Program-made: the position numbers and the translations under genes
Assembly: GCA_028278645.1 (NCBI GenBank)
Contig: JANQDZ010000024.1
Span: 1-64,000 of the forward strand
Source: Longimicrobiales bacterium
GTDB taxonomy: Bacteria; Gemmatimonadota; Gemmatimonadetes; Longimicrobiales; Gaopeijiaceae
Length of the DNA stretch: 64,000 nt
Direction: 5' to 3'
Notes under the pieces: model-generated
Seen by the model: only the letters and a program-made list of their open reading frames with translations
What the model was told of the DNA's origin: nothing
Database searches by the model: none
Part shown: positions 1,718 to 7,762 of the stretch, one piece after another
How positions within the stretch are numbered: position 1 is the stretch's first letter
Layout of the letters: each line of letters opens with the position of its first letter

Positions 1718-1870
1718 TGCTCTTCCTGAATTTGTCTCTCGTGGTGGCAGCCCCGAGGAGAGGCCCGACAATACAGAATGACTGAAGGTTACGGAGGCCA
1801 CCCGGCCCGCTCAAGACAAACTATTTCATTTGGGTTGCATCTCAGGGTAGACGGAGATCATCATTCCCTC

Positions 1871-3307
1871 ATGAAATCATCCAAGAAACTGTTCCCGAAC
1901 CTGATCTTGCTGGCCCTGGCCCTTTCGGCGACGGTGTCACCGAGGGATGCTGCGGCAGGAGAGGCGGCCCTCGCGTCGACGGCTCCAGCGCTTCAGGCCT
2001 TGCCCCAGCAAACTCAGGGGCCCGTGGTTCACGCTGTCCTCTTCTACCATCCGACCTGCGCCCACTGCCACCAACTCATCACCCAGTATTTGATCCCATT
2101 GCAGGAGCAGCACGGGAGCCAGCTGGTGATTCTCGGGATGGACACGAGCCAGCAGTGGGCCAACAATCTCTACTGGGAGGCCATCCGCCATTACGGGGTC
2201 CCGGAGGACGACTGGGCGGTTCCCATGATGGTTGTGGGCGAAAACGCGTACGTGGGGGGCGACCGGATCCCGGCTGAGTTTGCCCCGATTCTCGAACAGG
2301 GGTTGGCTGGGGATGGCGTCGATCTCCCGAGCTTCCCGGCGTTGGTCACCTTTCTCAGAGAGCAGGACGCCCTCGATCCGCGATATCCTGACCGTCTGAT
2401 CGCCCGACAAGCGCCGCCACCGGAAGGAGAACAAGCTCCGCCCCCGGATCCGCCGGAAGCCGAGGAAACCACTCCCGAGGGAGACTCGGTGGTGGCGGAC
2501 CCCCCAATGGAGGCTGACACAACGCCGGGGGTAGGTGCTGGTGCCGAAGTGGCCGGGGATCCCTCAGGTGAGGTTCAGCAACCAGGTGCCCCGGACCCTG
2601 GAACGGGGGCCCCTGAAGAGGGGGCGGAGGCCCGGCAGGTTCTGCCGACCCAGGAACCGCCAGAGGGGGCCGGTCCCCCAGGCGAGAACGTGGGCATGGT
2701 GGGGTTGGAGGAGGCGGCCCAGGAGCTCGAGTCAATGACCATGTGGGATCGGTTCAACCTGGATAGGACCGGGAACTCCATATCGGTCATCGTCCTGATC
2801 CTAATGGTGATTAGCCTGGTTCTCAGAGGACATCCGCCCCGGGTCAAAGGAGGCCCTTGGCCTCCCTGGGTGATCCCGGCGCTGATTTTGGTTGGAGCTG
2901 GCGTGGCGGCCTACCTCAGCTACATCGAGGTCACCCAAACGCCAGCGGCGTGCGGCCCGGTTGGTGACTGCAACACGGTGAATCAGAGCAAATACGCCAC
3001 CCTTTTCGGCTTCCTCCCTGTGGGAGTGTTGGGGCTGATCGGATACGGCGTGATCCTGGTGAGTTGGGTTCTCAGTCACTCCGCCTCAAGTGAGGTATCC
3101 CGAATGGCGACGCTGAGCCTTTGGGGTGCGGTCTTCTTCGGGGTGCTTTTCTCGATCTACCTGACCTTCCTGGAACCATTCGTAATCGGTGCGACCTGTG
3201 CGTGGTGCCTCACCTCTGCGGTGGTGATGATGCTCCTGTTATGGGCCGCCTCCCCGCTGGCCTCACGGGTCTGGTCCGGGCCGCTGGCGCCTTCCGAGGC
3301 GCAATAG
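1871..3307 (+). CDS. thioredoxin-fold / vitamin K epoxide reductase fusion
   Basis: A 478-residue membrane protein for extracytoplasmic disulfide chemistry. Residues 1-30 form a signal segment. A thioredoxin-like domain follows with CAHC at 63-66 (FYHPTCAHCHQ) and a VPMMVV cis-Pro-like strand. Residues about 180-295 are a Pro/Glu/Gly-rich linker. The C-terminal third is a VKOR four-helix domain with the outer loop pair C361 and C367 (CGPVGDC, followed by NTVNQSKY) and the active CAWC at 443-446. VKOR homologues reoxidise DsbA-like partners through quinone. In the usual bacterial fusions VKOR comes first and thioredoxin last; here the order is reversed. The ATG at 1871 is chosen because it begins the signal sequence; its ribosome site is weak. 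Confidence 0.88.
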   Translation: MKSSKKLFPNLILLALALSATVSPRDAAAGEAALASTAPALQALPQQTQGPVVHAVLFYHPTCAHCHQLITQYLIPLQEQHGSQLVILGMDTSQQWANNLYWEAIRHYGVPEDDWAVPMMVVGENAYVGGDRIPAEFAPILEQGLAGDGVDLPSFPALVTFLREQDALDPRYPDRLIARQAPPPEGEQAPPPDPPEAEETTPEGDSVVADPPMEADTTPGVGAGAEVAGDPSGEVQQPGAPDPGTGAPEEGAEARQVLPTQEPPEGAGPPGENVGMVGLEEAAQELESMTMWDRFNLDRTGNSISVIVLILMVISLVLRGHPPRVKGGPWPPWVIPALILVGAGVAAYLSYIEVTQTPAACGPVGDCNTVNQSKYATLFGFLPVGVLGLIGYGVILVSWVLSHSASSEVSRMATLSLWGAVFFGVLFSIYLTFLEPFVIGATCAWCLTSAVVMMLLLWAASPLASRVWSGPLAPSEAQ

Positions 3308-3308
3308 A

Positions 3309-3554
3309 GTGGCCGGGACCTCGGGCGGGGAAGGACAGTTTCGCTCCCATCTCGTTCCCAGGACGCGGGTCGGAAGGGTGGCGGTCGTGCTTTTCTTCGG
3401 TTTGTTCGCGTTGGTGGAGCCCCCGTTCGTTCACTCCTTCGCCAACCGGACTGAGCCGTGGATCCTGGGGTTCCCATTTCTCTACACCTACCTGTTGGTG
3501 ATTTACTCCGCCCTTATCGGCGTCCTCATCTGGGCCCTGAGGCGGAAACTGTAG
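3309..3554 (+). CDS. small two-helix membrane protein, DUF3311-like
   Basis: An 81-residue protein with two predicted membrane helices (VGRVAVVLFFGLFALVEPP and the segment LLVIYSALIGVLIWAL) and a basic tail RRKL. Small proteins of the DUF3311 type are commonly encoded just upstream of sodium:solute symporters and are thought to assist them. The position fits: its stop is 1 base before the symporter ATG. The GTG at 3309 lies 1 base after the VKOR stop, so the three genes are probably co-transcribed; the exact start is uncertain because several GTG codons are in frame. Confidence 0.65.
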   Translation: MAGTSGGEGQFRSHLVPRTRVGRVAVVLFFGLFALVEPPFVHSFANRTEPWILGFPFLYTYLLVIYSALIGVLIWALRRKL

Positions 3555-5076: not shown

Positions 5077-5108
5077 ACCGGTGGCCCGGCAGGAGGTTTC
5101 GGTTTCCT

Positions 5109-6164
5109 ATGGCTGACCCGGTTCGCCTGACCTTCGTGATTCAGGACCCGCCTCCCCAGGAAGGGGACGGATCCTCGAAAGAGGCGCCACACCTCGCCCT
5201 GGAGCCGGGCCAGATCGTCTACGGCCGGGTGGAGGTGGAGGTTCTGGAGGACGTGGAGTTCCGGGAAGCGCAGGTACGTTTCCTTTGGCATACGGAAGGG
5301 AAGGGGAACCGCGTTTCCGGGGAAAGCGGGACCGAAACTCTGGCCCGGGGTGGCAAGTGGTTCGCTGGAACCACCCATGGATTCTCTTTCCAGATCGCAG
5401 CCCCCAGTGGCCCCCTCACCTATCAAGGGAAAATCCTCAAAGTCCTCTGGGCCTTGGAGGCCAGACTGGACCGCTCCCTCCTGAAAACCGACTTGATCGA
5501 GAGCATTCCCGTGGTTTTGGAGGGAAGTCCGGACCCGGAGAAAGCCAGCTTGGGTCCCGTTCCGCAAGAAAAGGACAAGCTCGAGGCCGTGAAGAAGGGA
5601 AGGGTTGGGACTTGGGTCGCTGTGGGGTCCCTGTTCATCCTCATGGGGCTCTTCTATGGAGCCGCCAACGGATGGGACCTCGGAACCCCTGGAAGGGTTA
5701 CGACCGTGCTCCTGGTAGGGGGTGGCCTGTTCATAACCCTCCGAGGATTCTGGGGCCGTCTCGGAAGGGGGAAGTTGGGGGAGCCGACCGTCCATCTCAG
5801 CACGACGGAGGTCAGGCGGGGGGAGGAGATCCGGTTCGGCTTGGCTATTCGTCCAGAGCAGAAGACCGAGATCCGGTCCCTCGAGGTGATCCTCGAATGT
5901 GAGGAGCGGGTCGTTCACGGTCACGGGCAGTACCAGAGCCGGCACAAGAGGACGGTGTTCGAGAAGCACCTGACCCTGGCGAAGGATCAGACCATCGAGC
6001 CGCACCGGGGCCTGAAGAAGAAAGGAACGCTGACCCTGCCTCCGGATGCAGCTCCCTCCTTCGGCGCTCCCCACAATCAGGTGATCTGGTGGCTTCGCTT
6101 CCGAGGGGACATCGTGGGTTGGCCTGACTGGCGGGAGCCGGTCCTCCTTACGGTTTGGCCTTAG
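5109..6164 (+). CDS. arrestin-like beta-sandwich membrane protein
   Basis: A 351-residue protein of unusual build. Residues 1-150 and about 215-351 are both beta-rich domains with arrestin/Spo0M-like features: 'LEPGQIVYGRVEVEV', a mid-domain SFQIAAPSGPLTYQGK, then LKVLWALEARLD and IPVVL. The same order recurs in the second half (HLSTTEVRRGEEIRFGL to the final VIWWLRF and EPVLLTVWP). Two hydrophobic helices at about 168-188 and 198-215 separate them. No catalytic motif is visible. An ideal AGGAGGT at 5091-5097 supports the ATG at 5109. It sits 32 bases after the symporter and may be co-transcribed. A trafficking or scaffolding role is only suggested by the fold. Confidence 0.6.
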   Translation: MADPVRLTFVIQDPPPQEGDGSSKEAPHLALEPGQIVYGRVEVEVLEDVEFREAQVRFLWHTEGKGNRVSGESGTETLARGGKWFAGTTHGFSFQIAAPSGPLTYQGKILKVLWALEARLDRSLLKTDLIESIPVVLEGSPDPEKASLGPVPQEKDKLEAVKKGRVGTWVAVGSLFILMGLFYGAANGWDLGTPGRVTTVLLVGGGLFITLRGFWGRLGRGKLGEPTVHLSTTEVRRGEEIRFGLAIRPEQKTEIRSLEVILECEERVVHGHGQYQSRHKRTVFEKHLTLAKDQTIEPHRGLKKKGTLTLPPDAAPSFGAPHNQVIWWLRFRGDIVGWPDWREPVLLTVWP

Positions 6165-6202: not shown

Positions 6203-7762
6203 TCATCCGCCCGGCATTGTGAAGAGCTGGGCGTAGAAGTCGATCCCGTACCAAAGATTCCAAATCCTCAGGTTTTCATCCGGCGCATGCTGGAGATCGT
6301 CGTGGTTCGCGATGGGGACCATGAGGATGGGTTTTTGGAGCATGTCGGTGAAAAGGTAGAGGGGCAAGGATCCCCCCGAGCCCGGGGAAAGGACCACATC
6401 GTCGTTCCCCGCCGCCCTCCTGGCGGCCTCAACGACCTCCTGAAGGATCGGCAGATCCATGGGAGACCTGGCTGCCGGATATCCTCCGCCTCCGGAGACC
6501 TTGGCGATCTTCGGATGGGCCAGCCTCGTCTCCATGTCAGGATCTTCCCGAACGATGTGGTACCCCTGTTTCCGGATATGGGCTTCCACCAAGCTCCGCA
6601 TATGCGCCGGGTCGTTTCCTTTCACTAAGCGGACCCCGAGAGCGGCGGTAGCGGTGGAGGGGATGACATTCCGAGCCAAGGCCCCGGTGTTCCCCGAGGA
6701 GAGCCCCCGGACCGTCAGGGACGGAAGCTGGAGCCTTTCCGGGAGGGTTTGGGGCTCGCCTTCGGTCCGGGCCAAGCCCAGCTCCCGCTTGAGCTCGGCG
6801 TCGTACTTGGGGAGCTTCTGGAGGGCGTCCAACTCCATGGCCCCCAGCGGCTCCACGGTGTCGTAGAACCCTTCGATGAGGACTTTTCCATCGTCGGCCT
6901 TCATGGAAGCCAGGAGGTTGGCGAGCATCTGGCCCGGTACGGGAGCCCAGTTCCCGTAGTGCCCTGAGTGAAGGCCCCGGATGGGCCCGTAGACCGTGAT
7001 CTCCATGCCGGTTACCCCCCGGACTCCGAAGCTCAACAGAGGCCGGCCACTTTGATGAACAGGCCCGTCGAAAAGTAGCCAGACGTCGATGTCTTCGATG
7101 AGGTCTCCGTAGCTTTCCAGGTATCGGCCCAGGTTGGTGGACCCTGCCTCTTCCTCACCTTCGAAGAAGAAGATGAGGTTGGACGTGGGTGTCACGCCGC
7201 TGGTGTGGAAAGCCTCTAGGACAGGCAACATGGCACCTATGGGTGCTTTATCGTCTCCCGCAGCCCTGGCGTAGATCCGCCACTCCGGGTCGATAGCCTC
7301 CCCAGCCTCCGGGAATGGCCTCGGCTCCCCCCCGATCTCCATGGACTTGGTGTACAGGGTTGGGGTCCAGGGATCGTGGGTCCAATTGGTTGGATCGGCG
7401 GGTTGGCCGTCATAGTGGACGTAAAGACCCAAAGTCCGGGTGGCTCCAGGGACCATGATCTCACCGTAGACGATGGGGTTGGCCCCTTGGAGCGTGAGAA
7501 GACGGGAATCCACCCCCCGTTCCCCCAGCCTGTCCCGGATGAATTCGGCGTTTTTCCAGATTCCGGCTGAGTCGGACGCCACGTTTGGAATAGAGAGGAG
7601 TTGGGCGTAGTCGCTGAGGATCCTTGCGCCGTTGGCGTCTCGGAAGGCACGTGCTACGTCACTGCCGGACTCCTGGCCGGCCAGACCGGCCGCCAGAGGA
7701 CCGAAGGAGTGCGCCAAAGACAGGGCAAGGATCGATGCCAGCGATGACCGGGATACGGACAT
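6203..7762 (-). CDS. exported M20 family zinc dipeptidase
   Basis: A 519-residue exopeptidase of the M20/ArgE/CNDP-dipeptidase family. Residues 1-29 are a signal peptide. Metal-binding motifs are in order: H116-x-D118 (YVHYDGQP), D170/D171 (ARAAGDDKAP), the catalytic glutamate cluster EGEEEAGS near 203-205, FDGPVHQSG, and a C-terminal IANHDDLQHAPDEN histidine. The lid/dimerisation domain lies between about 230 and 340 (FGVRGVTGMEI, RGLHSGHYG). It most likely trims peptides in the periplasm. GAGGAGCC precedes the ATG at 7762. The gene is divergent from the barrel protein at 7931. Confidence 0.9.
   Translation of the reverse strand: MSVSRSSLASILALSLAHSFGPLAAGLAGQESGSDVARAFRDANGARILSDYAQLLSIPNVASDSAGIWKNAEFIRDRLGERGVDSRLLTLQGANPIVYGEIMVPGATRTLGLYVHYDGQPADPTNWTHDPWTPTLYTKSMEIGGEPRPFPEAGEAIDPEWRIYARAAGDDKAPIGAMLPVLEAFHTSGVTPTSNLIFFFEGEEEAGSTNLGRYLESYGDLIEDIDVWLLFDGPVHQSGRPLLSFGVRGVTGMEITVYGPIRGLHSGHYGNWAPVPGQMLANLLASMKADDGKVLIEGFYDTVEPLGAMELDALQKLPKYDAELKRELGLARTEGEPQTLPERLQLPSLTVRGLSSGNTGALARNVIPSTATAALGVRLVKGNDPAHMRSLVEAHIRKQGYHIVREDPDMETRLAHPKIAKVSGGGGYPAARSPMDLPILQEVVEAARRAAGNDDVVLSPGSGGSLPLYLFTDMLQKPILMVPIANHDDLQHAPDENLRIWNLWYGIDFYAQLFTMPGG

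Follow-up and report, generated by a model that had tools for sequence, protein, structure and literature searches.

A predicted membrane-anchored protein with two arrestin-type lobes encoded directly behind a sodium:solute symporter gene in a Longimicrobiales bacterium

Introduction

What could a protein with two arrestin-like domains around a membrane hairpin do in a bacterium, and does its gene stand behind that of a solute symporter for a reason? This question is raised by a gene in the window analyzed here, a stretch of 64,000 nucleotides from a Longimicrobiales bacterium (Gemmatimonadota; contig JANQDZ010000024.1). An initial annotation made from the sequence alone had proposed this domain arrangement, had called the plan poorly described, and had suggested that the protein could regulate the neighboring symporter as arrestins do in yeast. 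Eukaryotic alpha-arrestins act on transporters and receptors, and their PPxY motif recruits ligases of the Nedd4/Rsp5 type. In yeast, they act via ubiquitin ligase and endocytosis, a route via Rsp5 that to our knowledge is absent from bacteria.

The arrestin fold is known, including a bacterial branch of the clan, as Spo0M (PF07070) is named as a prokaryotic arrestin-clan family in the accessible part of PMC2515105. The accessible part of PMC2699828 mentions neither bacteria nor Spo0M. In the titles and displayed abstracts of the open-licence papers listed by our searches, neither the lobe-hairpin-lobe plan nor a pairing with sodium:solute symporter (SSS) or NTPase genes was found, which is consistent with the plan being poorly described.

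Results and Discussion

The reading frame is a conserved gene

The gene (5109..6164, plus strand) begins with ATG and encodes a protein of 351 aa, termed P0001. An AGGAGG resembling a ribosome binding site lies 12 nt ahead of the start codon (5091..5096, plus strand). Intact orthologues are present in four other genomes, namely G001, G002, G268, and G021, with identities of 90%, 79%, 67%, and 57% and dN/dS values of 0.056, 0.085, 0.210, and 0.264, respectively, at synonymous sites near saturation. The ORF is a real gene; a chance ORF is ruled out by the orthologues and the dN/dS values. In each of the four comparisons the C-terminal lobe described below is more conserved than the N-terminal lobe. 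It is the best-conserved part of the protein in two of them (L019 and L022), and in the other two (L020 and L021) the short linker ranks slightly above it.

Both lobes resemble arrestins and VPS26

The AlphaFold2 model of P0001, built from 13 sequences, reached a pLDDT of 87.6 and a pTM of 0.77. It places strands at residues 5-137 and 227-350 and helices at residues 155-163, 166-186, and 193-222. Thereby, three parts can be delimited, all on the plus strand: a predicted N-terminal arrestin-like lobe (residues 5-137; 5121..5519), based on the model, Foldseek and VIA-align, and on Arrestin_N matches of the relatives collected in profile A1; a helical part with the putative membrane hairpin formed by the long helices 166-186 and 193-222 (residues 155-222; 5571..5774), based on the model and on hydrophobicity; and a predicted C-terminal arrestin-like lobe (residues 227-351; 5787..6161), based on Pfam, the model, VIA-align, and homology between the lobes. 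The C-terminal lobe carries a WPDW motif (residues 338-341; 6120..6131), whose invariance in 13 aligned sequences arises partly by construction, since 12 of the 13 came from a pattern that contains WPDW.

A Foldseek search of the PDB with the model returned VPS26 first (6h7w_C, E 6.3e-16), and VIA-align superposed the model on VPS26 (5f0m_B) over 260 residues covering both lobes (Z 18.7, rmsd 6.5); the high rmsd suggests that the angle between the lobes differs from that in VPS26. Further Z scores were 16.2 for VPS26C, 14.3 for ARRD-6, and 14.0 for visual arrestin, and the N-lobe of ARRDC3 fits the C-terminal lobe of P0001 (Z 13.3, rmsd 2.2, 129 residues). The structure prediction and the fold search, which had been set as a check beforehand, thus gave arrestin-like sandwiches in both lobes, and the domain arrangement of the initial annotation was borne out. 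Among the 50 VIA-align matches listed, all are arrestins, alpha-arrestins, or VPS26 proteins, except for Rgp1 at rank 46. Rgp1 (PF08737) is a eukaryotic subunit of a GEF complex; it is weakly matched by six of nine A1 members (best E 0.0033; structure 9ayr_B, Z 13.3), whereas P0001 matches it only at E 0.35.

At the sequence level, P0001 alone gives a below-threshold Pfam match to Arrestin_C (E 0.0012; 19.6 bits against a gathering score of 27.7 bits), and its best hit to a solved structure (E 1.3) is not convincing. For its relatives L028, L029, and L026, the Arrestin_N matches of 51.0, 40.0, and 30.2 bits, respectively, lie above the gathering score of 24.9 bits. Within the A1 profile, which comprises nine relatives, Arrestin_C is matched by eight and Arrestin_N by seven members at E<=1 (best 1.6e-13), and the profile as a whole reaches the solved structures of TXNIP (1.2e-7), ARRDC3 (3.8e-7), ARRD-6 (2.4e-4), VPS26C (0.0011), and Spo0M (5cl2, 0.0035). 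NCBIfam assigned no family to the nine members examined. As modelled, P0001 is a protein of the arrestin clan with tandem arrestin-type beta-sandwich lobes.

Beta-sandwiches are common folds, and the likeness to arrestins could in principle reflect a shared immunoglobulin-type fold only, with the lobes serving as carbohydrate- or ligand-binding sandwiches outside the cell. We regard this as most improbable: arrestins were reached by sequence profiles as well as by shape, the VIA-align matches listed are confined to the clan apart from Rgp1, and the predicted topology given below would put the lobes inside.

The closest structural match, VPS26, and VPS26C, which belong to retromer and retriever, likewise carry two arrestin-like lobes per chain, whereas P0001 is bacterial, shares about 15% identity with them, and has a predicted membrane hairpin between the lobes. 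The Pfam family Vps26 (PF03643) is not matched by P0001 and is matched by one of the nine A1 members (E 0.21). Alpha-arrestins (TXNIP, ARRDC3, ARRD-6, and the yeast ARTs) resemble the bacterial family by profile (about 1e-7 for TXNIP and ARRDC3) and by fold (Z 13-14 for the ARRDC3 N-lobe and ARRD-6), but P0001 is predicted to span the membrane and its translation contains no PPxY motif. Because the yeast route needs ubiquitin ligase and endocytosis and P0001 lacks PPxY, the proposed action as in yeast does not hold literally. Spo0M is a bacterial member of the arrestin clan, too, and PF07070 is matched weakly by four of the nine A1 members at E<=1 and not by P0001 at this threshold; the accessible descriptions of Spo0M include neither a membrane hairpin nor an SSS or NTPase gene context. 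In our searches the bacterial family resembles Spo0M less than it resembles alpha-arrestins and VPS26.

Duplicated lobes around a predicted membrane hairpin

Comparison of the N-lobe and C-lobe profiles gave a probability of 97.3 and an E value of 1.8e-11, while the best of 20 column-shuffled controls reached 0.3. The two lobes are homologous to each other and represent a duplication. Between them, P0001 has two separate hydrophobic segments (residues ~166-184 and ~197-215) flanked by beta-rich regions, and the 13 aligned sequences, which come from Gemmatimonadota, Myxococcota, and Planctomycetota, all show exactly two hydrophobic peaks, both in the interlobe region (Kyte-Doolittle, window 19, threshold 1.25). 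The distant relative L029 (508 aa) was modelled with lower scores (pLDDT 74.7, pTM 0.55); in this model, the lobe-hairpin-lobe order is kept, a small C-terminal alpha/beta domain is added, and the similarity to VPS26B gives a Z of 18.2. L027 and L028, like L029, have a long linker and end in a further small domain; for that of L029, Pfam gives no match at E<=0.01.

P0001 has five K/R residues before the first hydrophobic segment, one between the two, and three after the second, and its sequence shows no N-terminal hydrophobic signal or signal peptide. Because K/R residues flank the hairpin and such a signal is absent, both lobes should be cytoplasmic. The flanking charges are fewer in several distant relatives, and L026 and L029 have no K/R before the first peak. 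For P0001, the charge flanks and the missing signal disfavor a periplasmic binding protein.

The symporter gene block and its conservation

The gene belongs to a compact block on a common strand (plus). The first gene encodes a membrane protein of the VKOR family that matches thioredoxin weakly (1778..3307; Pfam) and of which a homologue also occurs in L020. It is followed by a gene for a small DUF3311-like membrane protein (3309..3554; Pfam E 0.0028, below the cut-off), the gene of an SSS-family sodium:solute symporter (PF00474; 3556..5076), and the arrestin-fold gene, with gaps of 1, 1, and 32 nt. No plus-strand terminator-like site was found in the gap between the last two. Downstream of the arrestin-fold gene lies a convergent M20 peptidase gene (6203-7762).

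All five SSS-linked arrestin genes (window, L019, L020, L021, and L022) stand immediately after a DUF3311/SSS pair. The gap to SSS measures 32 nt for two of them and 6 nt for two others, and the remaining one overlaps SSS; the start codon of L021 is uncertain. The neighborhood with the SSS gene is thus conserved in the focal genome and in all four genomes that have a close orthologue, as the initial annotation had anticipated. The upstream VKOR and the downstream M20 gene also travel with part of the block; in G268 (L021) the SSS-arrestin pair is kept and the right-hand M20 neighbor was not found. In the tree, the five genes form a single clade with a support of 100/100, and their linkage to SSS therefore counts as one event and not as five independent ones; it may be a single event that was kept. 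As the window's genome has 13 SSF matches, a chance adjacency for one event is estimated at ~0.3-0.6%, with ~4,000 genes assumed.

The symporter occurs far more widely. An orthologue is present in 77 of the 121 genomes of the family (78 matches), with the arrestin gene behind it in five, which indicates that the transporter works without the arrestin-fold protein. Among 28 arrestin-free loci examined, out of the 78 matches in 77 genomes, a DUF3311 homologue precedes SSS in 28/28 and an arrestin gene follows SSS in 0/28. That a diverged copy was overlooked there is rejected for these loci, as tblastn gave no match in any of the 28 and the A2 profile reached a best E of 2.6 on the six-frame translated downstream DNA. 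The C-terminal tail of the symporter is alike with and without the arrestin gene, with no special docking tail, and only five symporter columns are diagnostic of arrestin linkage, each backed by three to five of the five linked sequences; two of these five are partial. A single origin of the arrestin-linked symporters was neither shown nor rejected (p-AU 0.27). Regarding the substrate class, the best NCBIfam model was panF with 141.6 bits, far under its cut-off of 328 bits.

In 18 of the 28 arrestin-free genomes (L055-L082), a motif of S51 peptidases (cyanophycinase-like) was seen behind the DUF3311-SSS pair, and Pfam confirmed it in both cases tested (L055 and L057). This peptidase gene hints at peptides or amino acids as the symporter's substrate.

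The structural likeness to VPS26, a retromer subunit, allows for another function, in which VPS26-like lobes on a hairpin would shape the membrane or form domains in it by arranging lipids or membrane proteins, with no single cargo. Spo0M, a bacterial member of the clan, affects division and membrane shape according to the accessible part of PMC5325327. However, VPS26 works with VPS35 and VPS29, and the coupling to one transporter in all five genes of the clade points to a specific role, so we consider a membrane-shaping function improbable.

Distant relatives and a P-loop NTPase

Within the window's family, the A2 profile gave arrestin-type matches in 11 of 121 genomes. The SSS-linked type was found in G000, G001, G002, G021, and G268 and the distant type in G000, G001, G006, G186, G417, and G418, so that G000 and G001 hold both; weak matches in G132 and G270 come from proteins of another family, which have several membrane helices. 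When 84,980 species genomes were scanned with one peptide pattern that ends in WPDW, 12 loci were obtained in Gemmatimonadota, Myxococcota-type bacteria, and Planctomycetota; as this was the only pattern used, the number undercounts the spread of the family. A plasmid search with the L026 protein gave no matches.

Altogether, 11 distinct distant loci were available (L023-L030, L045, L046, and L092; in L024 the context is partly visible, with less than 1 kb upstream), and most distant relatives have no SSS neighbor. In five of the 11, scattered over the tree and from Myxococcota, Planctomycetota, and Gemmatimonadota, a P-loop NTPase gene lies directly upstream and overlaps or abuts the arrestin gene (L025:7370-7969, L026:7346-8041, L027:7337-7957, L029:7324-7947, and L045:9692-10336, minus strand). 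The products form a small P-loop NTPase family with an LNLRxNPFG start and a Walker A motif (AAA_22, E 1e-4 for L045), and the two genes constitute a conserved pair across three phyla. Among the 121 family genomes, G000 and G186 are the only ones with a strong NTPase match, in both cases beside an arrestin gene; the remaining 25 genomes with a match have weak ones only (E 1e-4 or worse), and G001 has a distant-type arrestin gene and no strong NTPase.

These pairs, together with the origin of the SSS-linked genes from one clade, argue for a general membrane adaptor or scaffold whose true partner would be cytosolic, originally the small P-loop NTPase, so that the place behind the symporter would be an inherited one-time insertion without any regulation of the transporter. 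We hold this to be rather unlikely. None of the five SSS-linked genes (window, L019-L022) has an NTPase match beside it, and G000, which alone among the SSS-linked genomes has a strong NTPase, has it beside its other arrestin gene; the SSS-linked gene is thus kept under selection without the NTPase. Moreover, a second adjacency to SSS exists in two of the 11 distant loci (L028 and L046), where the arrestin gene and an SSS gene of a different type are arranged head-to-head.

A tethered adaptor as the preferred reading

In the reading that we prefer, and to which we give about an even chance, the product of the window's gene is an arrestin-clan protein that is held at the membrane by the hairpin between its lobes and works as a tethered adaptor, most likely for the SSS symporter. 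The computed fold and duplication provide the scaffold: the two-helix hairpin in the interlobe linker would hold both lobes close to the cytoplasmic membrane on its inner side, an orientation taken from the charges, and the lobes would clasp a membrane partner from the cytoplasm. The adaptor could then fix this partner in one transport state or bring a cytosolic protein to it. From the gene order we infer that the partner in the window is most likely the co-directional symporter of the same block, which the arrestin-fold protein would regulate. Since this symporter is common without the arrestin gene, the gene would encode a modulator and not a subunit needed for transport. Where a P-loop NTPase gene overlaps or abuts the gene of a distant relative on its upstream side, this scaffold probably serves to dock the NTPase at the membrane.

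More broadly, and only tentatively, bacteria might own a membrane-tethered, two-lobed arrestin system, in which an adaptor resembling VPS26 and alpha-arrestins and carried by a hairpin would exert direct control over sodium symporters or bring a dedicated NTPase to the membrane. If so, arrestin-type control of membrane proteins would exist without endocytosis, and the system would bear on the origin of the eukaryotic two-lobed arrestins and VPS26. Combining both lobes and a membrane anchor with close gene linkage to a transporter or NTPase, it would provide a small testable model of arrestin action without receptors, ubiquitin, or vesicles.

Further loci

A second family in Gemmatimonadota has an arrestin-C-like lobe between membrane hairpins, with five to six predicted helices (L048:6413-7909, minus strand; L049:982-2625; L050:7573-9183; L052:6593-8011, minus strand; L093:1007-3328). 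Pfam gave nothing convincing for the four members tested (L048, L049, L050, and L052).

In L028 (3213-7595, minus strand) and L046 (10078-14499, plus strand), a single uninterrupted ORF encodes an SSS inner-membrane symporter fused to a TonB-dependent outer-membrane receptor of the SusC type. The two products, of 1461 and 1474 aa, share 65% identity over 1465 aa; their domains were scanned in L028. The junction of the two parts ends in a signal-peptide-like stretch, and the fusion may therefore be a polyprotein that is cut by signal peptidase.
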